The notes beneath the pieces were generated by a model. It did not search any database. It had not been told where the DNA came from and worked only from the letters and a program-made list of their open reading frames with translations. Positions 4,513-61,000 of a stretch of DNA of 64,000 bases are shown here, in pieces. Positions within the stretch are counted from its first letter, which is position 1; each line of letters starts with the position of its first letter. A program made the position numbers and the translations under genes. This DNA comes from Bombilactobacillus folatiphilus (GTDB taxonomy: Bacteria; Bacillota; Bacilli; Lactobacillales; Lactobacillaceae): the NCBI RefSeq assembly GCF_023380265.1, contig NZ_CP093366.1, positions 496,001 through 560,000 on the forward strand, read 5' to 3'.

Positions 4513-4539
4513 AAGTGTGTGACAAAATAATGTTTGGTC

Positions 4540-4568
4540 TTGGTAAGATAATTTGCATATTGTATGAT
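4540..4568 (+). promoter_or_regulatory. Predicted sigma-A promoter of gnd
   Basis: TTGGTA (4540-4545), a 17-base spacer and TATGAT (4563-4568) lie 36 bases before the gnd start. Pattern match only. Confidence 0.6.
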
Positions 4569-4603
4569 AAGTGAGAGTAGTAAATTGGCAGGGGGTAGCA
4601 TTC

Positions 4604-17787: not shown

Positions 17788-19893
17788 TTGAAATTTTTTC
17801 AAAGGTTGAATCGACCTAAAACGACCCAATCACTGTTACCTTTTCGGTTAAATGTTTTATTAGTTTTAGTTTTTTCCTTATTTGCATTACTCATTGGACA
17901 ATTGGCATATCTGCAATTGCTCAACGGGCATAAATTTCAAGCAGAAGTGGAACGGTCTGATAAAACGATTATTAATGGTAATGTACCTCGCGGATTAATT
18001 TATGATTCTAAAGGTCGATTGATCGTTGACAATCAAGCTAGTAGTGCGATTACTTATACGCGTAGTGCGTCAGTTAAAACCACGGATATGTATCAAATCG
18101 CTAATCGTTTACAAAAATTTGTGACAATTGATGATGTTAAATTATCTAAGCGTGATCAAGCAGATTATTATTTGGCACCAACAAAGAATTATCAAAAAAT
18201 TCTCAAACAAGTAAACCGTGGTTTGACGGATGAACAGGTTCAGGAAAAAAGTCAATCTGAGCAATATAGTCGAGCAGTTAAATATGTTTTAAAAAATGTT
18301 TCGTTGCATCTAACGCCAGCTCAGCAACAAGCGGCAGCTATCTTCCAACGAATGAGTTCAGCATCGCAATACTCAACCGTATTTATTAAAAATTATAATG
18401 CTACGGCTAAAGAGGTTGCCGAAGTCAGTGAACACCAAATTGAATTGCCTGGTGTGCAAGTGGGAATTGATTCTAAGCGTTCCTATCCCATGGGAGATTC
18501 GATGACCAGTATTATTGGTCAGGTATCGACTGAAAAACAAGGCTTGCCTGATAACAATGTGAATGAATTGTTAGCTCAAGGTTATTCACGCAATGACCGC
18601 GTGGGGACGAGTTATTTGGAACAGGAGTACGAGCCGATTTTAAAGGGTAGTAAATCGCAAACACAAATTTCGGTGAGCCCTAGTAATAAACTCACTGATT
18701 CGGTGCAAAAGTATGCTGGTTCTAAGGGTGATAATTTAAATTTAACAATTGACGCTGACTACCAGAAAAAATTAGATTCTGCTTTGCGTGACACTTTTGC
18801 TTCTGCACAAGCTAATGGGGTGACACAATATTCTGATGGTGCTTACGCGGTGGCAATGAATCCTAAAACAGGCGCTGTGTTGGCGATGTCGGGGGTTCAC
18901 TATAATCCTAAAACTAATAAAGTTTCTGATGATGCTTTGGGCGTGATGAATCGAACTTTTGTGATGGGGTCGGCTGTTAAAGGAGCCACGGTCTTAGGTG
19001 GTTTAATGAATGGTGCGATTACGCCAGACAATAATGTTTTACCAGATGATCCGATTTATTTGCCTAGTACACCTGTGAAAAAGTCTGTCTATCCGGTGGG
19101 AACTTTTGGAGCTCTAGGGGCAGAACAAGCCTTAGAAGTGTCTTCAAACATTTATATGATGCGTTTAGCCATGCGTGAGGGTCATGCTAAATATGTTCCC
19201 AATAAATATATTCACATTGATCAGGATATTTTTAAAAAATTGCGCAGTAATTTTAATCAATTCGGTTTAGGGGTCAAAACAGGGATTGATTTACCCGGTG
19301 AAGCTAGCGGAATTAAAGGACCCACGATGTCTGATGGTTTAGTCAAAGTTGGTTCGGCTTTGGATGAATCGTATGGTAACTACGATGCTTATACTTTACT
19401 GCAAATGGGACAATATGTTTCAACCATTGCTAATGGCGGTTATCGCATGCGACCTTACGTTGTCCAATCAATTCAAAAAACTAAACGAGATGGTTCAAAA
19501 GGAGCGATTGTGCATACAACACAACCACAACCGCTTAATCGAGTTGATTTTACTTCAAGTCAATTAAATGTGGTGCAGACTGGTTTTTATAATGTGGTTC
19601 ACGGATCCGGTGCTTGGACGACGGCGAAGCCTTTGGCAAATATCCAACCAGATATTGCAGCTAAGACTGGAACGGCGCAATCATTTTATTATGACCCTGA
19701 AAATCCTGATAATTCTAATCCACCTCAAACGATTACTTTAAGCATGGTGGGTTATGCTCCCGCTAAAGATCCTCAGATTGCTTTTGCGGTTGTTTTCCCC
19801 AATTTGAGCAGTGAAAAGGGTAATTATAATTTGAATTTAGTTCGGAGTATGGTCACAGCTTATTTTAATACTAGTAATAAAGATTCTCAGTAA
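17788..19893 (+). CDS. Class B penicillin-binding protein (PBP2-type transpeptidase)
   Basis: Monofunctional D,D-transpeptidase for peptidoglycan cross-linking. It has a short cytoplasmic tail, a transmembrane helix (about 25-47), a dimerisation domain starting at RGLIYDSKGR, and the transpeptidase domain with SxxK (S395-K398 in GSAVKG), SxN (S452-N454) and KTG (626-628). 701 aa. TTG start at 17788 behind GAGGAG (17773-17778). The position before rpmG matches the PBP2b gene of many lactobacilli, usually an elongation enzyme. Confidence 0.92.
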   Translation: MKFFQRLNRPKTTQSLLPFRLNVLLVLVFSLFALLIGQLAYLQLLNGHKFQAEVERSDKTIINGNVPRGLIYDSKGRLIVDNQASSAITYTRSASVKTTDMYQIANRLQKFVTIDDVKLSKRDQADYYLAPTKNYQKILKQVNRGLTDEQVQEKSQSEQYSRAVKYVLKNVSLHLTPAQQQAAAIFQRMSSASQYSTVFIKNYNATAKEVAEVSEHQIELPGVQVGIDSKRSYPMGDSMTSIIGQVSTEKQGLPDNNVNELLAQGYSRNDRVGTSYLEQEYEPILKGSKSQTQISVSPSNKLTDSVQKYAGSKGDNLNLTIDADYQKKLDSALRDTFASAQANGVTQYSDGAYAVAMNPKTGAVLAMSGVHYNPKTNKVSDDALGVMNRTFVMGSAVKGATVLGGLMNGAITPDNNVLPDDPIYLPSTPVKKSVYPVGTFGALGAEQALEVSSNIYMMRLAMREGHAKYVPNKYIHIDQDIFKKLRSNFNQFGLGVKTGIDLPGEASGIKGPTMSDGLVKVGSALDESYGNYDAYTLLQMGQYVSTIANGGYRMRPYVVQSIQKTKRDGSKGAIVHTTQPQPLNRVDFTSSQLNVVQTGFYNVVHGSGAWTTAKPLANIQPDIAAKTGTAQSFYYDPENPDNSNPPQTITLSMVGYAPAKDPQIAFAVVFPNLSSEKGNYNLNLVRSMVTAYFNTSNKDSQ

Positions 19894-19898
19894 AGGAC

Positions 19899-19927
19899 TG
19901 GTCAAGAAACTTTGAAAGTGTTATTAT
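19899..19927 (+). promoter_or_regulatory. Predicted promoter of rpmG
   Basis: TGGTCA (19899-19904), a 17-base spacer and TATTAT (19922-19927), about 40 bases before the rpmG ATG. Confidence 0.45.
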
Positions 19928-29606: not shown

Positions 29607-29615
29607 GTTATATTA

Positions 29616-29689
29616 TGTCGCAGGTGGGATTCGAACCCACGACCTACGGTTTAGAAGACCGTTGCTCTATCCAGCTGAGCCACTGCGAC
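29616..29689 (-). tRNA. tRNA-Arg (anticodon TCT)
   Basis: The minus strand folds as a complete cloverleaf: acceptor GTCGCAG/CTGCGAC, D stem GCTC/GAGC, anticodon stem ACGGT/ACCGT with loop CTTCTAA (anticodon TCT at 29653-29655), T arm GTGGG-TTCGAAT-CCCAC and discriminator A. No CCA is encoded. Reads AGA codons. Confidence 0.97.
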
Positions 29690-29779
29690 AAACAAACACT
29701 ATTATATGAAATTGCGAATATTGTTGTCAATATAATTCTATGTATTTTCATAAAACAAATAAATTTTATCATTTAAAAC

Positions 29780-31952: not shown

Positions 31953-33077
31953 TTAAAGGCTGTCAAGAACCGAAAGAGTCTTTAAATCATCCTTTTGCCG
32001 TTTGTTTTGTAACAGGTGGGTATATATATTTAAAGTAGTCCTAGGTGTGGAATGACCAAGCCTCTCCGCAATATAATCAATACTAACTCCTTTAGAAATT
32101 AAAATGCTAGCATGAGTGTGTCTTAAACCATGGAAAGTAATTATATTTGTCGCATCAATAGATTTTAAAATTTTAGATAACAATTTGTTTACTCCAGTAT
32201 CGGTTGGAACTTGAAAAAATTTGTTTCTAAAAACTAGATCTAAGGAATCACGATAACCATGTTTTAAATAGTATTGAATTTGTTCAGTTTTTAAATTAGT
32301 AAACATGACTACTAAATCAGAACTAATAGAAATAGTTCGTTTAGATGACTCTGTTTTTGTACTTGATAATTTATTTTCAAAATGGTAATCCCAAGAATGC
32401 TCAATTCTAATGGTTTTGTTTTTTAGGTCAACGCATTTCCAGGTTAAAGCTAACAACTCACCAATTCTACAACCAGTTAATAAGCCCGCTAATATCAAAT
32501 AGTAATTAATTTTCAAGTAAGATCCATTATTAATACAAATTTGTTTTAGTTGTTCAGCTTCAGTGAGTTCTAAATATTTAAGACTGGAATCCTTAGATTT
32601 TTTACCACCAATATCTACATCATGGGTTACATCTCGGAATACAATACCATCATCAGCAGCATATTTAATGCATTTACGAATATAACTATTTAAACGACTA
32701 ACACTATCCCTGTAATGATTTAATGCATACTTATTTAAAAATTGTTGGTATTCGGTACGAGTAATATTCTTAAGTGGCTTATCACCAAAAAAATCCTTGA
32801 TTTCGATTGATGCTCGTTTATATTTTAGTTCTGTAGATTTATTCAATTTACCTAATTTATAAATCTTGATCCAATTTTCAAAAAAATCAGTTAAACTAAT
32901 TTTTGCTTTGTCTGATATTCCAACCGTGTTTTTTTGATTTTCCAATTTAGTAGCTGCAGCATTTGCTTCCCGCTTGGTATTAAATCCTGATTTAGTTGTC
33001 CAATGGCGTTTTTTCTCATCGTCGTACCAAGATACTTTAAACGCCCATTTGGATCCTCTCTTGTAAATTTGACTCAT
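31953..33077 (-). CDS. int: Phage tyrosine integrase
   Basis: 374-aa site-specific recombinase: N-terminal arm-binding domain (1-55), SAM-like core-binding domain (about 62-160), and catalytic domain with R204 (TGCRIGELL), H316/R319 (FHGLRHTHAS), H342 and nucleophile Y352 (LNIYTHL). Strong GGAGG before the ATG. Lies at the left prophage edge reading outward, the classic layout. Confidence 0.96.
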   Translation of the reverse strand: MSQIYKRGSKWAFKVSWYDDEKKRHWTTKSGFNTKREANAAATKLENQKNTVGISDKAKISLTDFFENWIKIYKLGKLNKSTELKYKRASIEIKDFFGDKPLKNITRTEYQQFLNKYALNHYRDSVSRLNSYIRKCIKYAADDGIVFRDVTHDVDIGGKKSKDSSLKYLELTEAEQLKQICINNGSYLKINYYLILAGLLTGCRIGELLALTWKCVDLKNKTIRIEHSWDYHFENKLSSTKTESSKRTISISSDLVVMFTNLKTEQIQYYLKHGYRDSLDLVFRNKFFQVPTDTGVNKLLSKILKSIDATNIITFHGLRHTHASILISKGVSIDYIAERLGHSTPRTTLNIYTHLLQNKRQKDDLKTLSVLDSL

Positions 33078-33201: not shown

Positions 33202-34113
33202 TTATTTCATTTGCGTTTGTGTTTTTCCTGAAACTTGTCCATTTTGTGTATTAATAATTAAATTAGCACCCATATCTCCATTAATACCAGAATCATAGGT
33301 TAAATCTTCACTTTCTTGACCATCAATATTAGTTTCTGAATAACCGTTGGGTTGACCAAATTTTTTAGTAATATCATCAATTGATTGCCCATTTTGAATT
33401 GAATTAAAGTCGTTCAGCGTAATTTTTTTGTCACGTTTAACTTTTAAACCAGTTATTGCCTTGGAAATGGCTTTACCGTTTGAAAATCCAACTGTGAAAT
33501 TAGCACCTATATCACCGTTCTGCACTTTATTCCAGATTTTATCGGAAGCTTTGATGTTTTCAATTGTTTGCGTTGATGTGGTACTTGGTGATCCAAACTT
33601 ATCTTCTAATTCTTGTTCAGTAGATCCATCACTAGTGCCTAGTTTAATAGCTTTAAAGTCAGTTAATGACGCACCATCTTTTTTAGGATTATTTGATTTT
33701 TGATTTGATGCTGTTTTTTCAGTTTTATTATGCGATTTGGCCGTTTTCGACGAACTGCCGCCAGACCCACCACTGACAATCGCAATTATTACAAGTACAA
33801 TAAGTATTAACCAAAACCACCAGCGTTTATAAAAATGTTTTTTAGATTTTGGATTAATCGGCGATTGAGGCGGAACTTGTTGTTGAGGCTGATTTGAATA
33901 AGCCCCCTGATATTGACCTTGTTGATACTTAGGATTGAAATTGTTAGGCTGCTGGTAATTATTATTATGCTGTTGATAGTTGGGATTGGGCTGAGAATAA
34001 CCATTTCGAGGCTGATTTGGATAATTAGGGTTATGGTTATTTGCTTGTTGATTTGTATTGTATCCATCGTTAGAGTTATTAGTTTGCTGATTGTTAAATC
34101 TTCTATTTCCCAT
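33202..34113 (-). CDS. Membrane-anchored two-repeat protein (DUF3862-like), possible lysogenic conversion factor
   Basis: 303 aa. Residues 1-90 are low complexity, rich in Asn, Gln, Pro and Tyr; a transmembrane helix follows (about 92-112, FWLILIVLVIIAIVSGG), then a Ser/Lys linker and two copies of a small domain (ALTDFKAIKLG-like and ITLNDFNSIQNGQS-like starts) resembling BLIP/SmpA-type repeats. The orientation is cytoplasmic tail, outward-facing domains. The gene is expressed with the lysogeny block, between int and the repressor, where superinfection-exclusion genes are often found. Function unknown. Confidence 0.75.
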   Translation of the reverse strand: MGNRRFNNQQTNNSNDGYNTNQQANNHNPNYPNQPRNGYSQPNPNYQQHNNNYQQPNNFNPKYQQGQYQGAYSNQPQQQVPPQSPINPKSKKHFYKRWWFWLILIVLVIIAIVSGGSGGSSSKTAKSHNKTEKTASNQKSNNPKKDGASLTDFKAIKLGTSDGSTEQELEDKFGSPSTTSTQTIENIKASDKIWNKVQNGDIGANFTVGFSNGKAISKAITGLKVKRDKKITLNDFNSIQNGQSIDDITKKFGQPNGYSETNIDGQESEDLTYDSGINGDMGANLIINTQNGQVSGKTQTQMK

Positions 34114-34164: not shown

Positions 34165-34466
34165 GACTTTTTATAACAGAATCTATAACAGAATCTGCAC
34201 AAAAACTCCGATTTAAATCAATTTTGTTATATTAGTTCCATTTCTAACAATTAAAAATTCTGATTTTAAAAATAGTTTTTGAGATTCTGTTATGTTTTTG
34301 TGATAGATTTTGTGAACGAAAAATCCTATTATATCAACGTTCACAGAACCTCCATAACACAATCTCTATATTTTTCTTTATTCTTAAGAAATAATATATA
34401 GAGTATATATAAAGTTTATGTTATTAGGTATATACAGAAAATCAAAAAGTTTTTGAGTTTTTGTTA
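34165..34466 (+). repeat. Copy A of a ~300-bp non-coding prophage element with TAACAGAATC motifs
   Basis: Gene-free, very AT-rich stretch. Motif copies: TAACAGAATC at 34174 and 34186, GATTCTGTTA at 34283, GATTTTGTGA at 34306, TAACACAATC at 34355, GTTTTTGTTA at 34457 (the last touching the ImmA stop). A GTGAACG...CGTTCAC dyad lies at 34312-34342. It is clearly related along its length to 47880-48177, including a 25-base identical block at 34385-34409. The arms form two successive inverted repeats. Confidence 0.85.
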
Positions 34467-34919
34467 ATCACCTCCTGATTTGATTGGTAATGGCGTAATA
34501 AATCTGATCATATTATCGGGTAAATGAAAATAATGCAACACAGTATATAGATTTATGGATTCGCTTTCAAAATCATAATCAAGGTCATACAATAATAAAT
34601 TAAATGCAAATCGGTTGGCTTTAGCTTCAATCCCTGGAATGTTAAATCCAAAATATTTTTCTCTCAATATAGTGGTGGATTGGCTAACCCCACTAACAAT
34701 GTGACCTAACTCATGAGCTGCTACATATGTTTTTAATTGTGACGGAATACATTCATTAATAATTACCGTATCCTCGTTTTCACTAATAACATTGATTCCT
34801 AGCGTTCCTTGCCTTAAATTTTCAAAAATCAGGTGACAATCTAAAAAATTGATGATTGCGAATGGATCAGTGGTTCCCCAAGTTTTAACTAGTTCCTCGA
34901 CTTCGTCCAAAGTCTTCAC
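34464..34919 (-). CDS. ImmA/IrrE-family metallopeptidase
   Basis: 151-aa zinc peptidase with HExxH in VAAHELGHIVSG and a downstream EAKANRFAFNLL helix. In ICE and phages this family cleaves the adjacent repressor to trigger induction. Directly downstream of the CI-like gene (5-base gap), so co-expressed. Confidence 0.9.
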   Translation of the reverse strand: MKTLDEVEELVKTWGTTDPFAIINFLDCHLIFENLRQGTLGINVISENEDTVIINECIPSQLKTYVAAHELGHIVSGVSQSTTILREKYFGFNIPGIEAKANRFAFNLLLYDLDYDFESESINLYTVLHYFHLPDNMIRFITPLPIKSGGD

Positions 34920-37175: not shown

Positions 37176-37535
37176 ATGATTGCTATTGATGAAATTGACC
37201 AAACAGTTCAAGCAATTGATTTAAGTGGAGTCCAAATTGAGCTTTCGCCTGATCAAATTATCATTCCTAAGACTGAATACAAAGATTTGCGAGAAGCTGT
37301 TGACAATGAACCAGTGTTTTGGACGCTTAAACAAGCACAAGAATATTTGGGAGTCGGACGTCAAAGTCTACTGACCATTATTTACAATCCACAAATCAAA
37401 AAAGAATTAGATATCGAACACGGGGGCTGTGTTAAATACTGGTCTAAAGGTTCACAATATTATTTTTTGCGTGACGATTTTAAAAAATACGTCGATAAGA
37501 ATAAAAAACGTTTATTAGGTTTGCTATGCAAATAA
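37176..37535 (+). CDS. Phage DNA-binding protein (DUF771/excisionase-like)
   Basis: 119 aa. Central helix-turn-helix-like stretch WTLKQAQEYLGVGRQSLLTI and a C-terminal KYWSKGSQYYFLRDDFKKYV wing, as in DUF771 phage proteins. Its ATG overlaps the stop of a possible 12-codon leader peptide (37141-37179) by ATGA. It overlaps the helicase gene by 10 bases. Confidence 0.7.
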   Translation: MIAIDEIDQTVQAIDLSGVQIELSPDQIIIPKTEYKDLREAVDNEPVFWTLKQAQEYLGVGRQSLLTIIYNPQIKKELDIEHGGCVKYWSKGSQYYFLRDDFKKYVDKNKKRLLGLLCK

Positions 37536-38860
37536 AGTTATATGAACACCAAAAGTTAGCATTAAGTTATTTACGTTTGAATGACCAGTTTGCATTGTTT
37601 ATGGAACAGGGAACAGGTAAAACTATTCCCACATTAGTTAGATTACTGGAATTGATTACCGTTGGCAAAGCTAAGGAGTGTTTGATTGTCGCACCGAAAT
37701 CGGCACTAGGTGCTTGGCAACGTGATATTGAATTATTTGACGTGGTTGAGCAGCACGTTTTGAATCGACACTTAACTTTGATTAATTACGACCGCGTTTG
37801 GCGACAGTCGCAAAAGTCTGAAATGGATAAGTACTGGGATGCAATTGTTCTGGATGAAAGTCACTTTATTAAGAATCGAACATCTAAGCGAGCTAAATTC
37901 TTGTTGCACTTGGCCACCAAAAGCATTTACCGCTATATCTTGACCGGAACCCCTATTTCGAATGGTCAATTGGAGAACATTTGGTCGCAATTGACTTTTC
38001 TGAAGCCAAAAGTAGTTAAAGGAAGAGTAAATTCAGAAATCTTTGGTAGTTACTATGATTGGTTAGATAAATATGCGTTATTGAATCAGTATTACCAGCC
38101 ATATCGATATCACAATGTAACGGAGTTACAACAGATTATTAATGAACACTCCTATCGGGTGACGAAAGAAGAATGTTTGGATTTACCTGAGAAGTTGCCT
38201 GATGAAATCTTGCCGATTGAATTAGCTGAAAAGTCTTATTACAAAGAATTGTCTAAAGATTCAGTAATTAGTCAATTCGAAATATTGGCTGAGAACCCGT
38301 TGAGCCGAATGCTGAAGTTGAGGCAAATTTGTTCAGGATTCGTGATGAATGATTATGGAGATTTGGAATTTCTCAAGACGAATAAACTGCAAGCATTGAA
38401 TGATTTTCTAGAGGGTTTTGAAAAGAAACTGGTTATCTTTGCCGAATTTAGCTACTCCATTGATTCTATTTGTCAATTGCTGGCTAAGCGCAAGATTAAA
38501 TATGTTCGTCTTGACGGCAGTCAAAAAAATAAGCTGATTTGGCGGGACTTTCAAAGTGACCCCAGTATTCAAGTAATTGTTGTGCAATACCAAAGTGGTG
38601 CCACAGGGATTGACCTTTATGCAGCAGATACAACCATCTATTACGAACCGACTTTACGAAGCACGATTTTAGAGCAAAGTCGTGATCGAACACATCGAAC
38701 TGGTCAATTAAATAAATGTTCCTATATTCATTTCATCACCACAGGTACCGTGGAGCGCCAAATCTATCAATCGTTAGCTAATTTTGAAGATTTCAGCGAA
38801 AAGCTATTTGAAGAATATATTGACCATTATCAGAAAGGTTTTTACAAACGAAAGAAGTGA
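37526..38860 (+). CDS. SNF2/DEAD-like phage helicase
   Basis: 444-aa superfamily 2 helicase: Walker A MEQGTGKT (K32), DESH box (110-113), the SAT-like LTGTP, and a C-terminal helicase domain with FAEFSYSID, LDGS and the Q/R finger RDRTHRTGQ. Likely remodels DNA during phage replication or recombination. No ribosome site of its own; coupled by overlap to the preceding gene. Confidence 0.92.
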   Translation: MQIKLYEHQKLALSYLRLNDQFALFMEQGTGKTIPTLVRLLELITVGKAKECLIVAPKSALGAWQRDIELFDVVEQHVLNRHLTLINYDRVWRQSQKSEMDKYWDAIVLDESHFIKNRTSKRAKFLLHLATKSIYRYILTGTPISNGQLENIWSQLTFLKPKVVKGRVNSEIFGSYYDWLDKYALLNQYYQPYRYHNVTELQQIINEHSYRVTKEECLDLPEKLPDEILPIELAEKSYYKELSKDSVISQFEILAENPLSRMLKLRQICSGFVMNDYGDLEFLKTNKLQALNDFLEGFEKKLVIFAEFSYSIDSICQLLAKRKIKYVRLDGSQKNKLIWRDFQSDPSIQVIVVQYQSGATGIDLYAADTTIYYEPTLRSTILEQSRDRTHRTGQLNKCSYIHFITTGTVERQIYQSLANFEDFSEKLFEEYIDHYQKGFYKRKK

Positions 38861-38991
38861 TGGAATTGGAGGATTTATATTTAAGATTTTGTTATTACTT
38901 TGGGCTGGAGCCGCATTCAAAGTTGACTAGTTTTTTAGGTTATTATTTTGAAATCATAATAGTGTTGGGATTGTTGGCGATGACAATATGA
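38860..38991 (+). CDS. 43-aa coupled small protein
   Basis: Starts at an ATG overlapping the helicase stop (TGATG) and ends overlapping the polymerase ATG (ATGA). Hydrophobic C-terminal helix (FEIIIVLGLLAMTI). Exact overlaps at both ends suggest it is translated, perhaps only to couple the two large genes. No family recognised. Confidence 0.5.
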   Translation: MELEDLYLRFCYYFGLEPHSKLTSFLGYYFEIIIVLGLLAMTI

Positions 38992-41630
38992 TTAATTACA
39001 TGATTTACGATATTGAAGTGTTTAAAGAAGACTGGTTAGTTGTAATTCATGATGTGACTAATAACTCAACGCGAGTTATCCATAACGACTTAAAGCAAGT
39101 CAAAGATATGTTTGATGCTAAGGATCATAAGTTATTCGTTGGATTTAATAACAAACATTATGATGACTACATCATATTGACCATGCTGGCCGGTGGTTCA
39201 AATAAGCTTGTAAAAGAGCATAATGATTGGATTATTGGTGGTAAGAATCCGTGGGAATTTAAATTCATTCAGTACCGTAAGAAGCCGTTTTATAGTTCAG
39301 ATTTGCGAGATGACTTGTCGATTAATTTATCTTTAAAGGCAATTGAAGCTAACCTTGGTAAATCTATTGTGGAAACGGGCGTGCCATTTGGTATTGACCG
39401 TGCGTTAACTAAAGCAGAATTAGACTTAGAAATTAAATATTGCTCGTCAGATGTTCTTAATACCGTGCGACTGTTCAACGAACGGAAGAACTACTTAGAC
39501 GCAAAGTTAACGGTTGGTAAATTGAAGGACTTTGAGCCTAGATATGCCCTCAGTTTAACGAATGCGAAATTAACAGCAGCATTCTTGGAAGCCAAAAAGA
39601 AGAACCATACGGATGAATTTGATTATCCAATCAATGAGAACTTGAAGATTGGTAAATATCAAGAAGTGCTGGATTTCTTTAAAGATCCAATTAGTTTTGA
39701 ACAAAAACGATTAAAAGCTAAGCTAACTAAAGCCAAAAGTGAGAGATCTAAGCAGTCAATTAAACGACAGCTCAAAGAATTAACCAGTATGTATCAGACC
39801 AGTTTGGATGTGAAAGTGGCGGGTGTGCCACACACGTACGCTTGGGGTGGATTACATGGGGCTGTTAAGAATTATTTCGTGAAAGAAGATAGTGAACATA
39901 CGATCTTAACCGCTGATGTGTCTAGCTATTATCCAAGTTTGATGATTCAATATCAATATCTTTCACGTAATGTGCCTAATCCTAAGGGCTTTGAAGATGT
40001 TTATCATCAGCGGATTAAAGCGAAAAATAGCGGTGATAAAGCTACGGCGGGAGCATTAAAATTGATTTTAAACACCACATATGGTGCATCCAAGAATCAA
40101 TTTAATGAATTATTTGACCCACGGCAGGCGAATGCTATTTGTATCAACGGGCAACTATTATTAACTGATTTGATTGACAAACTGGAAGATATTGAGAGCT
40201 TCGAACTAATTCAAACGAATACGGATGGGATTATTTTTCGCTTTAAGAATGAAGTTGCTGATGAAATTGAGTCAACTTTAGAAGAATGGGAACACCGTAC
40301 CAATATGAATATGGAACGCACGGCGATGAAAGTGATAGCCCAGAAAGATGTTAATAATTACGTCATGATGAAAGGCGAATCTTACATTTTTGAGAATGGT
40401 CAAAAAGTGGTGATTGATGAAGATCATGATGCACTGAAGACTAAAGGTGGTTATGTTTCGTTGTTCAAAGGTGGCAGTTTTGAAAATCGGTCACTAGTAG
40501 TGCTTAACAAAGCTTTGGTGGATTATTTCATGAATGGAATTGATCCCAAAGAAACGATTGAAAATGACCAGAATGTACTAGATTTTCAAATGGTCGCTAA
40601 AACTGGTTCTACCTATGATAGAACCGTGCAAGTGGTTAATGGTCAAGATGTTGAAGTCCAGAAAGTCAACCGAGTGTATGCGTCTAAGGATGAGAGCAAT
40701 GGTTCACTGTTTAAGTTAAAGGGTAACGGTCGGCGAGATAAGATTTCTAACTTACCTGAACATTGTGAAATTGATAATACTAATACCATTACTTTAGAAC
40801 AAATTGATAAAGAATTTTATATAGAACTAGCTAATAAGCGAATTGCCGATTATGTAGGCAAGAAAGGATACGAAGTGGCAGCGAGTAAAAAGACAGTAAC
40901 GAAAGCAAAAGAATCAGATGTATCAGAACTAAATATTTACCAAAAAATTACGAATGTGCGTTTGGAGTTTCTGGACGAAGAAATTAAGAAGAGTGGTGTG
41001 AATCGGTTTTCGGAGTATAAATATTTCGAACTAGAAGATATTGTACCCATTGCTAATCGTCTGTTGGCTAAATATCATTTAACAGCCAACATCTCATTTA
41101 ATCATGAGGTTGCAACGCTAAAGGTGGTTGATGCAGACAGCATTGTGCGCGATGAAAATCATGTGATTAAATCAGTGGACTTCGAAGAATTTAAGTCACC
41201 AATGGTGGAATTAACTGCTAAAGGCATGAACTCAATTCAAGCCATGGGCGCTGTTGAAACATACCAAAGGCGGTATCTATACTTTCTACTATTGGATGTA
41301 GTTGAACATGATGAGATTGATAGCGGAAATACGGCTGCTAAGGAAGAACCCCAAGCTGAAAAATCTAATAAAGTAGCTACTACCAAAGTTAACAAGAAAT
41401 CCGCTAGTGCAACTGAACGCAAGAATGCCAAAGCCAAAATTACAAACGCCGACGGTGAAATGACTGACGTGCAGAAGCATTCAATTGTGAAAGGTCTGAA
41501 GAAGTTACGGGCAAAAGATGAAAAGTATGAGCCATTTATTGCCAAAGTAAAAACTAAGATTAAGGGTGGGTTGACACAAAAACAAGCTGATAAATTACTA
41601 GAAAAAGTCGGCGATACGGTGGCGGAATAG
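38988..41630 (+). CDS. Family B DNA polymerase fused to an ERF-type ssDNA-annealing domain
   Basis: 880 aa in one uninterrupted frame. Residues 1-635: 3'-5' exonuclease motif YDIEVF (D8, E10), motif A DVSSYYPSLM (D310), motif B KLILNTTYGAS (K358) and motif C TNTDGI (D413), all family B polymerase marks. Residues 648-775 match ERF recombinases: NIYQKITNVRLEF and the signature MGAVETYQRRY (753-763). A Lys/Ala/Thr-rich linker (about 775-815) leads to a small helical C-terminus. The next gene is the matching YqaJ exonuclease, which supports the annealase reading. The fusion is unusual. Confidence 0.85.
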   Translation: MINYMIYDIEVFKEDWLVVIHDVTNNSTRVIHNDLKQVKDMFDAKDHKLFVGFNNKHYDDYIILTMLAGGSNKLVKEHNDWIIGGKNPWEFKFIQYRKKPFYSSDLRDDLSINLSLKAIEANLGKSIVETGVPFGIDRALTKAELDLEIKYCSSDVLNTVRLFNERKNYLDAKLTVGKLKDFEPRYALSLTNAKLTAAFLEAKKKNHTDEFDYPINENLKIGKYQEVLDFFKDPISFEQKRLKAKLTKAKSERSKQSIKRQLKELTSMYQTSLDVKVAGVPHTYAWGGLHGAVKNYFVKEDSEHTILTADVSSYYPSLMIQYQYLSRNVPNPKGFEDVYHQRIKAKNSGDKATAGALKLILNTTYGASKNQFNELFDPRQANAICINGQLLLTDLIDKLEDIESFELIQTNTDGIIFRFKNEVADEIESTLEEWEHRTNMNMERTAMKVIAQKDVNNYVMMKGESYIFENGQKVVIDEDHDALKTKGGYVSLFKGGSFENRSLVVLNKALVDYFMNGIDPKETIENDQNVLDFQMVAKTGSTYDRTVQVVNGQDVEVQKVNRVYASKDESNGSLFKLKGNGRRDKISNLPEHCEIDNTNTITLEQIDKEFYIELANKRIADYVGKKGYEVAASKKTVTKAKESDVSELNIYQKITNVRLEFLDEEIKKSGVNRFSEYKYFELEDIVPIANRLLAKYHLTANISFNHEVATLKVVDADSIVRDENHVIKSVDFEEFKSPMVELTAKGMNSIQAMGAVETYQRRYLYFLLLDVVEHDEIDSGNTAAKEEPQAEKSNKVATTKVNKKSASATERKNAKAKITNADGEMTDVQKHSIVKGLKKLRAKDEKYEPFIAKVKTKIKGGLTQKQADKLLEKVGDTVAE

Positions 41631-42695
41631 ATGAGTAATCAATATCATTTTGAAAATAATCATATTGTTTTGGACACAATGCCTAAATCGTTTAAAAAAA
41701 TTACGGCAACCAGATTTGCGGCAGTTATGGGTTTGAACCGGTGGACAACACCCTTTCAAATTTGGTGCGCATTGACTCGAACTTGGGAACAACCGTTTGA
41801 AGATAATATTTACACCAAAGCTGGGAAGATCATTGAACCCAAAATTCGCGAAGATTATTTACGAAACAAACTTTTTTGGGACGTTGACAATCCAGATGAT
41901 GTCATTGGTGATGGCACAGCAGGTTCGGCGTTTAAGAAGACATGGGGTGACTTTTATCACAGCACCAAAGTATTAGGTGGTATGTGGGATGGCCTTGGTC
42001 ATGATGATGAAACAGGTGAAGATTATATATTGGAGATTAAGACCACTAAACGAGCAGAAGACTGGCTGGATGGGGTTCCCGAATATTATAAGCTTCAAGC
42101 CGCACTTTACACCTATCTTTCAGGGTTAGATCGCTTTTATGTAACGGGTACTTTTCTTGAAAATAGTGATTACGATCATCCTGAAAATTTTGTGGCAAAT
42201 AGCCAAAACACGAAAATATATTTATTTAGTTTGGGTGAAGAATATCCACATTTCAAACGAGATTACGTTGATAAAGTGCTTGCTTTCTGGAATCAATATG
42301 TAGTAAGTGGTATGAGTCCAGATTTTGACGAAAAGAAAGATACGGAAGCACTGAAAGCATTGCAAACTGTTGAGGTAACAGATGATGATTTGAATACACT
42401 GTTAGAAGAATATGATGCCAACCAGATGGAACTTAATTCAAAAATGGTTGAAGTTCAGCCTTTAATTGACCGGCAGAAAAAGTTGAAAGTTGCAATCAAA
42501 GGACTAGCCGTAGATAACTTTAAAGCCGATTCAAAATATGAAAGCTTTAGTAGCAAACATTTTGACTTTAATGTAACTAAGACTACTAGACAGACGGTAG
42601 ATGGTAAGAAGCTAAAGGATGCAGGTTTGTTTGATCAGTATAGTAAAGAAACTGAAAGTTACACGTTGCGTGAAAAAGTTAAATCAGAAGATTAA
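41631..42695 (+). CDS. YqaJ-like recombination exonuclease
   Basis: 354-aa PD-(D/E)XK nuclease: KITATRFAAVMGLN start, GKIIEPKIRE, catalytic D in GGMWDGLG, ExK in LEIKTTK, and Q in YYKLQAALYTYL. Resects double-strand ends so the annealing protein can load. C-terminal third is helical. Starts directly after the polymerase-ERF stop. Confidence 0.9.
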   Translation: MSNQYHFENNHIVLDTMPKSFKKITATRFAAVMGLNRWTTPFQIWCALTRTWEQPFEDNIYTKAGKIIEPKIREDYLRNKLFWDVDNPDDVIGDGTAGSAFKKTWGDFYHSTKVLGGMWDGLGHDDETGEDYILEIKTTKRAEDWLDGVPEYYKLQAALYTYLSGLDRFYVTGTFLENSDYDHPENFVANSQNTKIYLFSLGEEYPHFKRDYVDKVLAFWNQYVVSGMSPDFDEKKDTEALKALQTVEVTDDDLNTLLEEYDANQMELNSKMVEVQPLIDRQKKLKVAIKGLAVDNFKADSKYESFSSKHFDFNVTKTTRQTVDGKKLKDAGLFDQYSKETESYTLREKVKSED

Positions 42696-42710: not shown

Positions 42711-43175
42711 ATGGCAAAAATTAAGACAGTTGAAGTTGGTCAAGGGCTTATTCCAGAAGGGCACTATGTATTTAAAGTTGACGATGTGGATGATTCGAAG
42801 TATGAAGATTTCGGCAAAATTACAATTAATTTAATTACCAAAGATGGTAAGAAATTTAGTGAAAGATTCACCTTGTTAAAAGCCGATGGCAAATTGAATG
42901 AAGGTGCGCAGAAAGCCTGGAGTTTCTGGGTTGGTATTATTCTCAATCAATGGGGCGCTGGTGAAAGTGACACCGATGATTTGATTGGCAAATATTTAGA
43001 AGCTGATGTGGTTCACAAAGAATCAGATCAAATTAACGAGAAAACAGGTAAAGCTTATGTTAATGCTAATTTGGAAAATATAAAAAGTGCTGATGGATTC
43101 GATGGTGCTGAAGATGAAAAACCAATGGTTGATAGTGATGAAGATGATGATTTAGATGACTTGGACGACCTTTAA
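42711..43175 (+). CDS. DUF669 protein with SSB-like acidic tail
   Basis: 154 aa. Beta-rich body (LIPEGHYVFKVDDVDDSKYEDFGKI) typical of DUF669, then a strongly acidic C-terminus ending DDLDDLDDL, like the protein-interaction tail of single-strand binding proteins. The place among recombination genes suggests ssDNA binding. AGGAG before the ATG. Confidence 0.75.
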   Translation: MAKIKTVEVGQGLIPEGHYVFKVDDVDDSKYEDFGKITINLITKDGKKFSERFTLLKADGKLNEGAQKAWSFWVGIILNQWGAGESDTDDLIGKYLEADVVHKESDQINEKTGKAYVNANLENIKSADGFDGAEDEKPMVDSDEDDDLDDLDDL

Positions 43176-43177
43176 TT

Positions 43178-43462
43178 ATGGGTCGTGAAGCACAACTTCA
43201 AACCAAATGCTTAAATTATTTGAAACAAAAGCGGATTTATTGTGTGAATGTTTATGGTTCGGGCAGAACTGGTAAAGGTACACCTGATATTCTGGCTTGT
43301 GTTAATGGTCAGTTTGTCGCATTTGAATTGAAGGTTGGTTCTAATCAAATGCAGTCTGATCAAGTGATTCATCGAAAACGAATTTGGGCAAGTGGTGGCA
43401 AACACTACACACCACGTTCAATTGAGGAATTTAAAGAAATCATTAATCAGTTAGGAGGGTAA
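43178..43462 (+). CDS. VRR-NUC domain nuclease
   Basis: 94-aa minimal VRR-NUC protein: N-terminal EAQLQTKCLNYLKQK, GKGTPDILAC (catalytic D) and FELKVG (ExK). Families of this size are probable structure-specific nucleases. Two bases after the DUF669 stop. Confidence 0.88.
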   Translation: MGREAQLQTKCLNYLKQKRIYCVNVYGSGRTGKGTPDILACVNGQFVAFELKVGSNQMQSDQVIHRKRIWASGGKHYTPRSIEEFKEIINQLGG

Positions 43463-43465
43463 CTT

Positions 43466-45391
43466 TTGGAATTTATCATATTAAACGACAAAAAGAAACC
43501 CGCACATAAATGGAAAGACCCCAGCAATACGAAAACGGCAGCGGAAGTGAAAGACTTCGACAACTATGCCGTGGTCGTGCCCAAAGGTTTCATCGTTTTG
43601 GATTTCGATAGTACTGATGATGCGCAATTAATGCTGAATATTGTTGACGGTTTGGAACTTAAAACGCGTGTTTATCAAACAACTCGTGGATATCATTTCT
43701 GGTTCAAAGCAAATGAACCATTTAAAAATTTCGTAAAAGCTAGATTAGCCTGTGGTTTATTTTCGGATTGTCGCAGTGGCACCAATGGTAATAAACGTGC
43801 CTATGTTGTTCTCAAAAAAGACGGCAAGAAGCGTGAAGTATTACGAAAAGTAGCGCTGAAAGATCTTGATGAAGTTCCAGCTTTTCTTAAACCAGTGTCA
43901 GCGCCTAGTGATAAGTTTAACTTTAAATTTATGTCTGATGGTGACGGGAGAAATCAGCAACTTTATAACTATATTGTTTTCTTGCAAGGCCAGGGATTGA
44001 ATAAAGATGCTATTAGGCAAACAATTGAAGTAATTAATGATTATGTCTTTGATGAACCATTACCAAATAGTGAGCTACAGGTGATTCTTCGTGATGAATC
44101 ATTTAAGGCTGAGGATGAAGTTAAAAAAATTGAACCCAAAAAAGTGAGTGGCTTCAAGCACAATGAGTTTGGTAATGAATTAATTAAGCAATACCATATC
44201 GTGACGGTTAACAATCAACTTTATGTTTATGATGACAATTATTATCAACAGGATGATCGAATTATTGAGCGCAAAATGATTGATATGTTTCCAGCGATTA
44301 AACAACAGCAACGCAATGAAGTTCTGGCTTATATTCGAATCGAAACTCACCGCAACCAAGCGGATATCAAAATTAATCCTTATGTGATTAATTTGAACAA
44401 CACGAGATTAGATGTCCGCACTGGTGAGTTGATGGACTTTGATTATCGGGCAATTGAATTTGACCGAATACCAGTCAAATTCAATCGTGATGCCTATGAT
44501 GAGAACGTTGACCAGATGTTAAGTAATGTATTTCAAGGGGATGTAGAAATTAGAGCTTTATTTGAGGAAATTCTTGGGTACTGTTTAATTAAGAACAATC
44601 GGTATCGAGCTGGATTTATGTTTGTGGGCAGTGGACGTAACGGCAAGTCGACTGTAATGGACATGATTAAAAATTTCTTGGGTCGACGCAATTATTCAAC
44701 AATTGGTTTAGATAAACTAACTGATCGATTTGCTACCGCAGAATTGGAACACAAATTGGCAAACATCGGGGATGATATTAATAATCTACCGCTGAAAGAA
44801 ACCGGGACGATTAAGAAAATATTTACCGGTGATTCGATTATGGTTGAGCGCAAAGGTGAGCGACCTTTTGAATTAGAACCTTATGCCAAGATGATTTTTT
44901 CAGCAAATACAATCCCGCGGAGTTACGACAAGACAGATGGATTTTACAGTCGACTGATGTTCATACCCTTTAACGCCAAGTTTAGTGCTGATGATGCTGA
45001 TTTCGATCCAAATATCGAAGATAAATTAACGACCGATAACGCGATGAGTTATTTATTAAACCTTGCTTTGAGCGGAGTCAAGCGATTGATTAACACTGGT
45101 GAGTTTGCACAACCGAATAGAGTAATTGACATGATGAATGACTACAAAACGGATAATTCAACAGTACTAAGTTGGGCTGATGATCAAGAAGTTAATTTGG
45201 AATATGTACTCAGCAAACCATCGGCGGATTTATATTCAGAATTCACCAGTTGGTGTAAAGAGTCTGGAATTAAATCAAATAATATTACGGGCAAGAAAAT
45301 ATTCAACAAAGAATTGATTGAGAAATTTGATTTAGATAGTAAGCAAAAACAAAGGTCGGATCGAAAACGATATTTTGTAGTGGCTTTATAG
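43466..45391 (+). CDS. Prim-pol primase with SF3 helicase (phage/plasmid P4-type)
   Basis: 641 aa. N-terminal AEP primase-like domain with D46/D48 in VLDFDS and TTRGYHFWF, a linker with a PriCT-like part, and a D5/SF3 ATPase with Walker A GSGRNGKST (388-396), the GDDINNLPLKETG B motif and FSANTIPRSYDKTDGFYSRL sensor. Provides primers and unwinding for phage replication. TTG start behind GGAGGG. Confidence 0.92.
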   Translation: MEFIILNDKKKPAHKWKDPSNTKTAAEVKDFDNYAVVVPKGFIVLDFDSTDDAQLMLNIVDGLELKTRVYQTTRGYHFWFKANEPFKNFVKARLACGLFSDCRSGTNGNKRAYVVLKKDGKKREVLRKVALKDLDEVPAFLKPVSAPSDKFNFKFMSDGDGRNQQLYNYIVFLQGQGLNKDAIRQTIEVINDYVFDEPLPNSELQVILRDESFKAEDEVKKIEPKKVSGFKHNEFGNELIKQYHIVTVNNQLYVYDDNYYQQDDRIIERKMIDMFPAIKQQQRNEVLAYIRIETHRNQADIKINPYVINLNNTRLDVRTGELMDFDYRAIEFDRIPVKFNRDAYDENVDQMLSNVFQGDVEIRALFEEILGYCLIKNNRYRAGFMFVGSGRNGKSTVMDMIKNFLGRRNYSTIGLDKLTDRFATAELEHKLANIGDDINNLPLKETGTIKKIFTGDSIMVERKGERPFELEPYAKMIFSANTIPRSYDKTDGFYSRLMFIPFNAKFSADDADFDPNIEDKLTTDNAMSYLLNLALSGVKRLINTGEFAQPNRVIDMMNDYKTDNSTVLSWADDQEVNLEYVLSKPSADLYSEFTSWCKESGIKSNNITGKKIFNKELIEKFDLDSKQKQRSDRKRYFVVAL

Positions 45392-47879: not shown

Positions 47880-48177
47880 AAATAACAGAATCTATAACAA
47901 AAACATAACAGAATCTATGTTTGACATTAGTTTTTGTTAAATCGGCGGTGATGCGTTATATAATTCACAAATAGTTTTTGTGATTTTGTGCAGATTCTGT
48001 GCAGATTTTGTTCACGGTAAACCCCTTGGGGCGCACGGAATCTCAAAATTTTATAACACAATCACACTATTATTCTTTACTTTTATAAGAAATAATATAT
48101 AGAGTATATAGGGCATTATGTGATAGTAAATATTAGTATATATAGAACTTAAGAAAGTTTTTGTGATTCTGTTATTT
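47880..48177 (+). repeat. Copy B of the ~300-bp non-coding prophage element
   Basis: Gene-free stretch before the ArpU-like gene. Motif copies: TAACAGAATC at 47883 and 47906, GATTTTGTGC at 47982, GATTCTGTGC at 47993, GATTTTGTTC at 48004, TAACACAATC at 48054, GATTCTGTTA at 48165. The right half aligns with copy A throughout; 48086-48110 is identical to 34385-34409. The ends carry inverted ATAACAGAATC arms. The centre contains a CCCCTTGGGG palindrome. Confidence 0.85.
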
Positions 48178-48210: not shown

Positions 48211-48633
48211 GTGAGCGACGAATTGTTTAAAATTAACAAACGATTTTTAAATCAATATCGAATTATTATGTCGAAAGTTGATCGACTTGAAACTAAATTA
48301 GCTCGACTTGATGAGAGAAAATTTGCGTTAGGTAATTCTAAAATTACGGGGATGCCTAAAGGTGGAATTGCTTTGAGCTTGGAAGATACTGTGGCGCAGA
48401 TTGATGCAACTAATCGACGAATCAATGAGCATTTACAAGATGCCCGCAAATTGAGAGGTCAGTTAGAGAATATCTTTGATCAGTTAATCAATTCCAAACA
48501 GGCTGAAGTGCTGGATATGTATTTTATTGAACGGCTAGGATTATATGAAATATCACTTGAAACGAGTTACAGCTACCGCTATGTGACGCAACTTTACACT
48601 CGTGGCGTGAAATCTTGCCGAATAAATAATTAG
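48211..48633 (+). CDS. ArpU/DUF1492-type late transcription regulator
   Basis: 140 aa: N-terminal coiled coil, the SKITGMPKGGIALSLED family loop and a C-terminal sigma-region-4-like helix-turn-helix (VLDMYFIERLGLYEISLETSYSYRYVTQL). In related phages this gene directly precedes the terminase genes and controls late or packaging transcription. GTG start behind GGAG. Confidence 0.82.
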   Translation: MSDELFKINKRFLNQYRIIMSKVDRLETKLARLDERKFALGNSKITGMPKGGIALSLEDTVAQIDATNRRINEHLQDARKLRGQLENIFDQLINSKQAEVLDMYFIERLGLYEISLETSYSYRYVTQLYTRGVKSCRINN

Positions 48634-58099: not shown

Positions 58100-61000
58100 C
58101 GTCAAAGCTGTGTTGAGCGCTGTTGATTCAGGATTCAATTCCACTGTTAATAGCGCCGTTGGTAGTTTGAATAAGTTATCCAAACAGTCAGGATTAAGTG
58201 CCAACGGAATTGGTAAATCTATGACGGTTGCTGGGGCAGCAATTACGGCAATGGCTGCTAGTTCAGTTAAAGGTTTTGGCGATTTTCAAAAGTCAATCAA
58301 CCAAGCGGCTGTGATTGCTGGTGGTTCTTCGAAAGATATTAAAGCTTTAAGTGATGAAGCGAATAAATTAGGTCAAACCTTGCCAATTAGTGCACAGGAA
58401 GCAGCTGATGCCATGATTGAAATGGCTAAAAATGGGGCGTCGGTTAAGGATTTAAAAGACGACTTCCCGCCAATAGCTAAAGCTGCTGCTGCTACTGGTG
58501 AAGATTTAAGTAGTACGGCTAGCGTGGTTCAACAATCAATGAACCTTTGGGGTGGTGGTATGAAAAATGCCACTATGTATTCGGCTATTTTGGCAGAAAC
58601 CGCCAATAAGTCCAATGCCACGATTGGCGACATGCAACAAGTTCTAGCCGATGTCGGCGGAACAGCGGTTAATATGGGTATGGACTTGAAGACGCTATCC
58701 ACCGCAGTCGGGATATTAACCAACAGTGGTATTCCAGCAGCACAAGCGTCAATGGATTTGAACCATGCATTAACAGCAATGGAAGCACCAAGTAAAATTG
58801 CCAAAGGCGAAATGACTGCTTTAGGGCTATCATTTACTGATGCTCAAGGCAATATGAAACCATTCCCACAGATCTTGCAAGAAATAGCTAGTGCCACTGA
58901 CGGTATGGGCGAATCTCAAAAAGCAGCAGCATTAAAAACAATGTTTGGGACAGCTGGAATGAATGCAATGTTGCCTTTGTTAAAATCAGTTAATGGTGAG
59001 GCCAAAAATGGTAATGTCGACTGGAATATTTTATCTTCGGCGCTAGATAATGCAGGTGGATCTTTTCAAACGGCAAGTGCTTATTTAGACAGTTCAACGC
59101 AGCAAATGCAACAAAACCTTGGGTCTCGAATTGACCAGATGAAAGATGCATTTACAGGGTTGCAAAATACGGCAATGGCTTCAACCAGTGGGATGGTTTC
59201 GGGTGTGGTAAATGCCTTAGATAATATGTTTACGCACATGCAAACTAGTAATGATGGAATTTCTCAATTAGCCCGTGGTTTCATTGGTTTGGCACCAGTA
59301 ATTGGGCCGGCTGTGACTGCTGTGGGTGGCTTTTTGACCTCAGCCGATCGAATTAAGTCCACCTTAGTTGATGCAGCCAATTGGTTAGTGAGTCCTTGGG
59401 GTTTAGCTACTGTGGCAATCGGCTTGGTAGTTGGTGCGCTAGCTGGTTTGTATCAGAATTTTACTCCATTTAAAACGGCTGTTGATAATACCGTTGCAGC
59501 CTTCCAACAAGGTTTTGGACAAGCGATGCCTGTTGTATTACAAAGTTTTCAAGGGCTGATTAGCAATTTAAAAGGTGATTTAGAACAAATTGGTTCCGCA
59601 ATTAGAGATCAATTAGGCGGCAGTTTACAATCCATTGATGCTCAAACGGCAGCAACTAACATTGAGAATGCTTTTAATGGAATCATTGGGGTAATTCAAA
59701 ACGTTGTCGGTGCCATTACGAAAATGGTGACGGCATTTATCAATACAGGCGCTATTCAATCTGTTTGGGGCGCAATTAAATCAGTAATTGGTGCTGTTGT
59801 TGATGTGATTAAAAATGTAATAAATAACATTAACAATTTAATTAATATAAATGGCAGTATTGAAGCACTGAGTGGCGTTTGGTCGATATTTGGAACAGCA
59901 ATAGGAGACATTGTAAAAGTAATTGGTAATGCAGTTAGTGGAATTACTGATTTTATAAAAAAAGTAAGTAGTATTCCTGAAGTTATGACACCTTTACTAG
60001 CAGGAGGTTCAGCAATTTTAGGCGTTACAGCATTGTCTAAAGGATTTGAGTTATTAAAAACAGGTGTTGATAAAGCTAAGCTTGCTATTGTTGGTGTTAA
60101 AAGTGCTATTGACACGATTAAAACAGCTTGGGTAGCATTCAATGCTATTCTAGAAGCGAATGTCTTAATGATTATAGTCACCGCAATTGCAGCCGTTGTG
60201 GCTGCTTTGGTTGCCTTTTTTACGAAAACCCAAACTGGACAAGAAATTTGGCAAAGTTTTACCACGTTTTTGTCCGGAATTTGGAATACTTTAGTACAAA
60301 CTGCTCAAACGGTATTTGGAGCGCTAGGTTCTTTCTTTAGTGACCTGTGGAACGGGATAGTTTCGGTAGCTCAAACTATTTGGAATGGTTTAGCTCAATT
60401 TTTCCAAACTATTTGGAACGGTGATGTAGCGATTGCTACTACTATTTGGAATGGTTTGAGTAACTTTTTTAGTGGGTTATGGAATGGAATAGTTTCGGTA
60501 GCTACTAATGCTTGGAATACGTTTAGTGGTGGATTATCCCAAATTTGGAATGGGATTATTGATATTGCCAAAGGTATTTGGGGATTAATCAAAGATGCCG
60601 TGATGAGCCCAGTATTAATTGTTATTGATTTAGTAACCGGCAATTTTAAGCAATTGGGTTCGGATGTTCAGTTAATTTGGAACACTATCAAAGATTCCGC
60701 AAATACTATTTGGAATGGTATTAAATCAGTTATTACTGGTTTGGTTACAACCACGGTCAATATTATCAAAAGTGCTTGGACAGGTTTTAAAAGTTTTATC
60801 AATGCCATATGGACCGGCATTAAAACTATTGGAAGTAATATTTGGAATGGCATTAAATCTAGTTTGACTAGTATTCAAAAAGGTACAGTTAGTGCAAGTA
60901 AAAATATTTGGAACGGTCTTAAAAATTTCATTAATTCATTTTTAAATACAATTAAAACCCTTTGGAAAAATGGGTTTAATGCAATTAAATCGACAATTGT

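Follow-up and report, generated by a model that had tools for sequence, protein, structure and literature searches.

Paired iteron arrays flanking the replication genes of a Bombilactobacillus prophage are probable origin-type sites for a P4/D5-family primase-helicase

The window analyzed here, a 64,000-nucleotide stretch of the Bombilactobacillus folatiphilus chromosome, carries a prophage that begins on the left with a tyrosine integrase gene, a DUF3862 lipoprotein-like gene, a non-coding element (L, for left), and ImmA-like and CI-like genes on the minus strand. A rightward run follows that encodes Cro-like, Rha, DUF771, SNF2 helicase, polymerase-ERF, YqaJ exonuclease, SSB-like, resolvase-like, and primase-helicase proteins. 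Further right lie a methyltransferase gene, small ORFs, a second non-coding element (R, for right), and the ArpU-like, terminase, and portal genes. L and R bracket the regulatory and replication region of the prophage (Table 1). The phrog_36 protein encoded beside R is called ArpU-like here, as in an earlier reading of the sequence alone. The terminase has its closest relatives in Lactobacillus phages (69% identity), consistent with a host from this group. The polymerase is B-family-like, some 90–110 of its residues giving a partial match to E. coli DNA polymerase II; given that match an A-family assignment was dropped, and with it a parallel to the SCCmec polymerase. The same ERF fusion is encoded by a prophage of another genus in the same family (G343), with 61% identity to the 880-aa ORF. 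The DUF3862 protein beside the integrase (33202-34113, minus strand) has a strong PHROG match labelled BLIP and weaker superinfection-exclusion-like matches, and a tRNA-Arg (TCT) gene about 2.3 kb from the integrase gene (29615-29690, minus strand) is a possible attachment site.

Table 1 Coordinates, within the window, of the two elements, their parts, and the prophage genes discussed
Feature	Coordinates	Strand	Remarks
Tyrosine integrase	31953-33077	-	About 1 kb from L
L, putative origin L	34165..34466	+	77% AT; between DUF3862 lipoprotein-like and ImmA-like genes
L block A	34174..34195	+	Two exact TAACAGAATC, starts 34174 and 34186, 12 bp apart
L block B	34283..34315	-	Reverse iterons at 34283, 34294, 34306; 11-12 bp apart
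L block C	34355..34364	+	TAACACAATC; first 9 of 10 bases invariant across 4 aligned elements
L AT-rich stretch	34365..34448	.	Putative unwinding element; contains the 25-bp block; weaker iteron-like site at 34414
L block D	34449..34466	-	Reverse iteron(s) at 34457, oriented toward block C on the far side of the AT-rich stretch
ImmA-like ORF	34464-34919	-	Adjoins L
SNF2-type helicase	37526..38860	+	Family in 30/30 paired phages
DNA polymerase (B-family-like) fused to ERF annealing domain	38988..41630	+	880 aa; polymerase family in 30/30 paired phages
YqaJ/RecE-like exonuclease	41631..42695	+	
SSB-like protein	42711..43175	+	Modest match, phrog_378
Endonuclease / Holliday-junction-resolvase-like protein	43178..43462	+	
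P4/D5-family (SF3) primase-helicase	43466..45391	+	641 aa; proposed iteron-binding initiator
R, putative origin R	47880..48177	+	72% AT; directly upstream of ArpU-like gene, 2.5 kb 3' of primase-helicase gene
R block A	47883..47915	+	Forward iterons at 47883, 47895, 47906; 11-12 bp apart
R block B	47974..48013	-	Reverse iterons at 47974, 47982, 47993, 48004; 8, 11, 11 bp apart
R block C	48054..48063	+	Forward iteron TAACACAATC
R AT-rich stretch	48064..48156	.	Putative unwinding element
R block D	48157..48174	-	Two overlapping reverse iterons, 48157 and 48165, 8 bp apart
ArpU-like transcriptional regulator	48211..48633	+	phrog_36; first gene right of R

The two elements lie where the sequence-only reading had placed them, in the same orientation and 13.7 kb apart. 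They had been described as free of genes, and both do lie between genes, apart from a 3-bp overlap of L, at its right edge, with the ImmA-like stop codon. The 25-base block TAAGAAATAATATATAGAGTATATA, identical at 34385-34409 and 48086-48110, was reported exactly and is the longest exact match between L and R. The earlier reading had asked whether the likeness of the copies exceeds that of shuffled AT-rich sequence, and it does: the local alignment score was 93 in direct and 54 in inverted orientation, against a mean of 22 and a maximum of 37 in 1000 dinucleotide shuffles of L. The proposed 10-bp motif, TAACAGAATC, recurs in both orientations, with 9 sites having at most two mismatches in L (shuffle mean 0.65, maximum 4) and 8 in R (mean 0.54, maximum 4). 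Nor is it spread evenly across the prophage, the other outcome that had been raised. Between 29001 and 64000 (35 kb) all six exact sites fall inside L and R, as do 8 of the 12 sites with at most one mismatch and 17 of the 63 with at most two.

In a motif-blind scan, which scored clusters of 9-mers on either strand in 320-bp scan windows with one mismatch tolerated, L and R ranked first and second over 29001-64000 with 10.7 each, the best of 40 block shuffles reaching 9.0. The third-ranking scan window (60315-60552, score 10.0) contains a different same-strand repeat unrelated to L and R; same-strand clusters are present in the late region both there and at 63530-63760 (TTTGGAACG and TAATCAAGA). 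Rfam gave no match at L or R, T-box and tRNA being the sole matches. A BLASTN search of phage records had been suggested for each copy; a distant search run with L gave weak matches to 10 records (best E 0.03), and a comparison of L with 150 relatives and the window's own genome matched four others, each across 24–42 bp.

The repeat unit, or iteron, is 10 bp long with the consensus TAACA(A/G)AATC and is mostly spaced at 11–12 bp. Both elements have the same order of blocks: forward iterons (A), reverse iterons (B), the forward iteron TAACACAATC (C), an AT-rich stretch of about 84–93 bp that includes the shared 25-bp block, and reverse iterons (D), so that blocks C and D face one another across the stretch. 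A few isolated iteron sites also lie in L and R beyond these blocks. Judged by its sequence, this layout is that expected of an origin, in which a putative unwinding element would lie between two sets of initiator sites. A terminator-like hairpin in block B of R (47985-48005) consists of the iterons themselves (2 matches in that kilobase vs 0.3 expected).

As the nucleotide matches were weak and short, nucleotide search was unsuitable and relatives were sought through the primase. Searches with primase and polymerase alignments, the first list being the best 80 of 556, gave at least 126 loci on viral contigs and 8 on bacterial contigs. The bacterial contigs were titled Lacrimispora, Peptostreptococcus (two), Ruminococcaceae, Clostridia, and three metagenome bins named for other phyla. 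For the 104 listed viral-contig loci with a plus-strand primase, several of which look like near-copies (L073 and L124 are one contig), scan windows scoring at least 10 were tallied without individual inspection, a few (for example L076 and L159) resembling other repeats. In 35 loci such a scan window lay within the interval that begins 100 bp before the primase end and stops 700 bp after it, and in 43 it was farther downstream, while 9 had none despite at least 4.5 kb of room and 17 had too little room. Four of the 9 array-less loci have a sub-threshold scan window (8.8–9.1) at the primase 3' end.

Matched pairs were sought in 43 hand-picked phages with a related primase, the window's own included. 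For this set 34 records were hand-chosen from loci L044-L169 on available sequence and locus position, nine of the 34 already showing two arrays; G581 (L108) was excluded from the 43, and L181 and L185 from the count. Two arrays sharing one iteron, one on either side of the replication genes, were present in 30 of the 43 phages (hereafter paired phages). Offsets from the primase start were about -7 to -14 kb for the left array and about +3 to +9 kb for the right one, G552, G553, G565, G566, G577, G578, and G580 being assumed to be circular. A right array was present in 40 phages, and the iteron learned from it alone was used to predict the left array. The best other scan window was the blindly found left one in 29 of the 40, a new one in G564, and neither in 10. 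When a missing flank was fetched after the idea had been formed, a second array was found in 19 of 25 cases (15/20 plus 4/5).

The motif correlation between a phage's own left and right arrays was 0.75, compared with 0.43 for permuted partners (maximum 0.57 in 10,000). The 30 phages of this test, from which five k-mers resembling tandem or coding repeats were excluded by hand, include G565, which was paired with an unrelated left repeat and is not among the 30 paired phages, and omit G564. In several of the AT-rich arrays an EM motif model was drawn toward poly-A, and k-mer cross-prediction was therefore relied on.

A gap between iterons of at least 40 bp, with an AT content 10 points above the phage mean, was present in 59 of the 60 elements of the paired phages (29/30 left, 30/30 right), and the iterons flanking the AT-rich gap were oppositely oriented in 45 of the 60. 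The two elements are inverted relative to one another in 21 paired phages and direct in 9; the window's phage and G343 are among the direct ones. How many iterons there are, and in what order, is not the same in left and right elements. The iterons also vary between phages, examples being TAACAAAAT-like, CCTTGAACC-like, AGTCAAGAT, CAAGTCAAC, GTCAAACTT, GTGTAACAG, AAATCAC, and GGAACAGAT. In the G343 prophage both elements are at matching sites about 14.2 kb apart, one beside the integrase gene and the other before the ArpU-like gene; the primase-helicase gene of that prophage (G343:C1:515651-517595; L010, L040) is split into two overlapping frames.

No matched pair was seen in 13 of the 43 phages. 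G557 and G571-G573 have a left flank of just 7.5–11.6 kb; G578, G583, LincolnB, and PI-Sepi-HH2 have one array directly 3' of the primase; G565 has a right array and unrelated left repeats; G560 has a same-strand repeat alone; and G575, G580, and G586 have no qualifying right array.

The scan was also applied blindly to phages of known annotation. In P4 the top two scan windows were the annotated crr (4312-4584) and ori (9166-9414), which share one iteron, and in Lactobacillus phage A2 the top scan window (32226-32479) fell within the annotated rep_origin. TP901-1 and phig1e, which have no annotated D5 primase, each gave one scan window above 10 (18.5 and 10.4, respectively) and no second one with the same motif among the top five. 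An array alone is therefore not diagnostic and the scan is not specific.

The primase-helicase carries the D5_N and DUF5906 domains of an SF3/D5-type initiator-helicase and passes the TIGR01613 cut-off ('phage/plasmid primase, P4 family'). Pox_D5 falls just below cut-off (21.2 vs 21.4 bits), and there was a weak AEP-type match. Profile positions 251-628 matched PDB 7ola ('DNA primase') with an E value of 8.6e-42, an entry that we take to be SaPI5 Rep. When nine proteins were scanned with Pfam Pox_D5, P4 alpha, the A2 protein, and six relatives matched at E < 0.05, two of them below the cut-off, and that of locus L045 had no match at this threshold. AF2 modeling gave helices plus a hairpin at residues 566-641 (about 45161-45388; pLDDT 86 for the C-terminal model), which we read as a predicted C-terminal winged helix. 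Foldseek matches to the C-terminal model were weak (best E 0.25). In the whole-primase model residues 408-513 had a pLDDT under 50, and owing to this low mid-protein confidence modeling was used for the C-terminus alone.

The sequence-only reading had listed a replication initiator among the possible readers of the repeats, an option that is well supported by arrays directly 3' of the primase gene in 35 of 104 loci, by the pairs in 30 of 43 phages, and by recovery of the P4 and A2 origins. We conclude that L and R are probably origin-type sites for the P4/D5-family primase-helicase, either a matched pair of origins or one origin plus a cis-acting partner, and put the probability of this reading at roughly 0.83.

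Each element resembles the SaPI/PICI origins, in which iteron sets flank an AT-rich region and are read by the element's own initiator, a type of origin said to be common to no other known replicon (PMC6092414). However, PICI origins lie immediately 3' of the initiator gene, whereas R is 2.5 kb downstream and L is 9 kb upstream of it, and PICIs are satellites lacking structural genes, whereas here the origin-type element occurs twice in a phage with terminase and portal genes. The A2 rep_origin likewise has iterons on both sides of an AT-rich stretch and sits directly 3' of a D5-family primase, but it is the single annotated origin of that phage and its iteron differs (ACGGGAGGA). The earlier reading knew of no described element of this form. 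That holds for the matched pair with a phage-specific iteron, of which a literature search found no description in this phage group, but not for the single element, given the SaPI/PICI-type origins, nor for two-site origins as such, which are known from P4 and SPP1.

Phage P4 provides both a close two-site parallel for the primase-helicase and the argument for an alternative that we consider possible but doubtful, namely that just one of L and R is an origin and the other is a cis-acting initiator-binding partner serving in looping or copy control, as crr does in P4. As here, the primase-helicase gene of P4 sits between two separated sites with a common iteron type (NC_001609): crr immediately follows the 3' end of alpha, and ori lies some 5 kb off. 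P4 requires the two sites in cis to replicate. Alpha and the window's protein both have D5_N and DUF5906 (Pox_D5 is present in P4 and just sub-cut-off here). The differences are that alpha has a Toprim primase rather than a weak AEP-type match, that the P4 sites are about 5 kb rather than 13.7 kb apart, and that the iteron sequences differ. The unlike number and order of iterons in left and right elements speak for this alternative, whereas retention of the AT-rich gap on both sides means that neither element looks degenerate. This last argument is indecisive, since 60-bp windows of P4 are AT-rich in both crr (0.75) and ori (0.78). Looping between L and R, which the sequence-only reading had raised, is possible.

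P4 alpha binds its origin repeats with a winged helix (PMC4234260). In SCCmec the D5-type helicase Cch2 was described as binding an iteron-bearing putative origin through its isolated C-terminal domain (PMC7581432, PMC10061031). Those accounts also pair Cch2 with a polymerase (CCPol-MP) and an SSB-like partner, as in the prophage, but the SCCmec site is a single short one of three iterons in a chromosomal cassette and the polymerase is A-family rather than B-family-like.

If the primase C-terminus reads the iterons, the two should vary together between phages, and the same comparison bears on the proposal that the arrays are sites of a transcription regulator (CI, Cro, Rha, or an ArpU-like late activator), with int/ImmA under its control at the left element and late genes at the right one. 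The SNF2, polymerase, and primase-helicase families are the sole ORF families present in all 30 paired phages; CI/Cro-like proteins occur in 25 and ArpU-like proteins in 22. Iteron similarity correlated with identity of the winged helix (rho 0.669), the SF3 domain (0.677), and SNF2 (0.659), and with ArpU identity at rho 0.739 over the 231 of 435 pairs that could be compared. Partial correlations were 0.223 for the winged helix given SF3 and 0.265 for the converse, 0.385 for the winged helix given ArpU and 0.278 for the converse, 0.086 for the winged helix given the SSB-like family, and 0.035 for CI/Cro-like given the winged helix. As iteron similarity tracks the winged helix no better than it tracks SF3 or SNF2, shared ancestry explains much of the signal.

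More discriminating were phages with the same iteron. Fifteen paired phages have the iteron of the window, and in these the winged helix of the primase shows 45–70% identity to the window's own, whereas ArpU-like proteins are 21–41% and CI/Cro-like proteins 17–33% identical (14 phages compared for each; the CI/Cro cluster may mix paralogues). At SF3 identities of 0.65–0.75, winged-helix identity was 0.61 in same-iteron pairs (n=49) and 0.45 in different-iteron pairs (n=7). The values were 0.52 (n=32) and 0.42 (n=65) at SF3 identities of 0.55–0.65, and indistinguishable, 0.32 (n=1) and 0.33 (n=15), at 0.45–0.55. These sequence comparisons favor the primase C-terminus as the iteron reader, short of proof. 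The regulator proposal, for which the ArpU correlation and the position of R before the ArpU-like gene speak, is unlikely. Besides the low identities, the cI-cro interval, where the CI/Cro repressor option of the earlier reading would have its sites, has none with at most one mismatch and two with at most two. Promoter-like motifs were not in excess in the region of either element (6 vs 6.4 and 3 vs 4.6 expected), and the arrays directly behind the primase gene in relatives also argue against a regulator.

It is very improbable that L and R are packaging, partition, or integrase-arm sites instead of origins. The small terminase gene lies some 0.8 kb from R, and L is near the integrase gene, but neither location accounts for the other element, yet the iteron is common to both, and relatives have the array beside the primase; a scan of 27 prophage ORFs with Pfam, PHROGs, or both gave no ParB-type match. 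The sequence-only reading gave a MITE-like element with ATAACAGAATC inverted ends as the alternative. Two insertions of a MITE, or of some other short mobile element, can be set aside almost entirely even though each element does contain TAACAGAATC in inverted orientation, in R close to either end, because a search of the whole 1.64-Mb genome with L (E <= 0.001) gave four matches, all at L or R, and because positions are kept in G343 and in many phages whose pairs have different iterons.

For the primase-helicase as initiator, a working scheme can be drawn by analogy with related systems. The protein would bind TAACAGAATC-like iterons through its C-terminal winged helix, and helicase rings would assemble on either flank of the AT-rich stretch, which they would melt and on which they would load, after which the phage polymerase and the SSB-like protein would carry on synthesis. 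The role of two copies is a guess modeled on Bacillus phage SPP1: one copy would start circle-to-circle replication and the other, when bound by protein, would stall a fork, whereupon the recombination enzymes encoded between L and R would make concatemers for packaging. Such a switch from circle-to-circle to concatemer synthesis is attractive because the genes between L and R encode an exonuclease, a resolvase-like protein, an SSB-like protein, and an annealing domain.

As described in the SPP1 literature (PMC6316719, PMC3485210), that phage has two such origins, oriL and oriR, each of repeats plus an AT-rich region and about 12–13 kb apart (13.7 kb here). One protein binds both, and fork stalling at oriR was proposed as the trigger of concatemer synthesis. 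SPP1 also encodes an exonuclease, an annealing protein, an SSB, and a resolvase. By the same accounts SPP1 initiates with the origin-binding protein gp38, the loader gp39, and the DnaB-family helicase gp40 rather than with a P4/D5-family protein, and its oriL lies inside gene 38, whereas both elements here are intergenic. No gp38-type origin-binding protein or DnaB-family helicase was matched among the 27 scanned prophage ORFs (Pfam, PHROGs, or both).

A broader proposal is tentative, with the odds against it: that phages having SNF2, polymerase, and P4/D5-family helicase genes share a conserved dual-origin system that arose independently of that of SPP1. Such phages would be temperate and have two complete origins, more often inverted than direct, with one iteron kept in step at both sites while varying between phages; an initiator firing one origin would make the other a fork barrier and so time the switch to concatemers.

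Taken singly, L and R belong to a known kind of element, the iteron-plus-AT-rich origin that an SF3 helicase reads; here this kind is duplicated in a phage with late genes, and the duplicated, iteron-matched type of origin extends to relatives on Clostridia contigs and virus contigs. The natural iteron variants, each with a likely cognate initiator, are a resource for learning how D5-family winged helices choose DNA, and the question of why some phages (SPP1, P4) have two origins can now be tested by comparison. Since cloned phage origins are known to protect dairy strains as anti-phage decoys, L and R could be tried in that role.

Other repeats were noted in the relatives. Strong tandem repeats, mostly on one strand and unlike the iterons in sequence, are present in early regions at L135:3512-3820, L144:3505-3693, and L045:4465-4650. 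In Paenibacillus phage LincolnB a unit of about 185 bp occurs twice in tandem upstream of the primase gene (L041:19506-19690 and 19722-19906). The two copies bear different short repeats, one CCTTCA-type and the other CCGCCA-type, and at the end of the primase there is an overlapping third array (GGTAACAGA). These arrays may possibly be an origin caught in the midst of a change of iteron.
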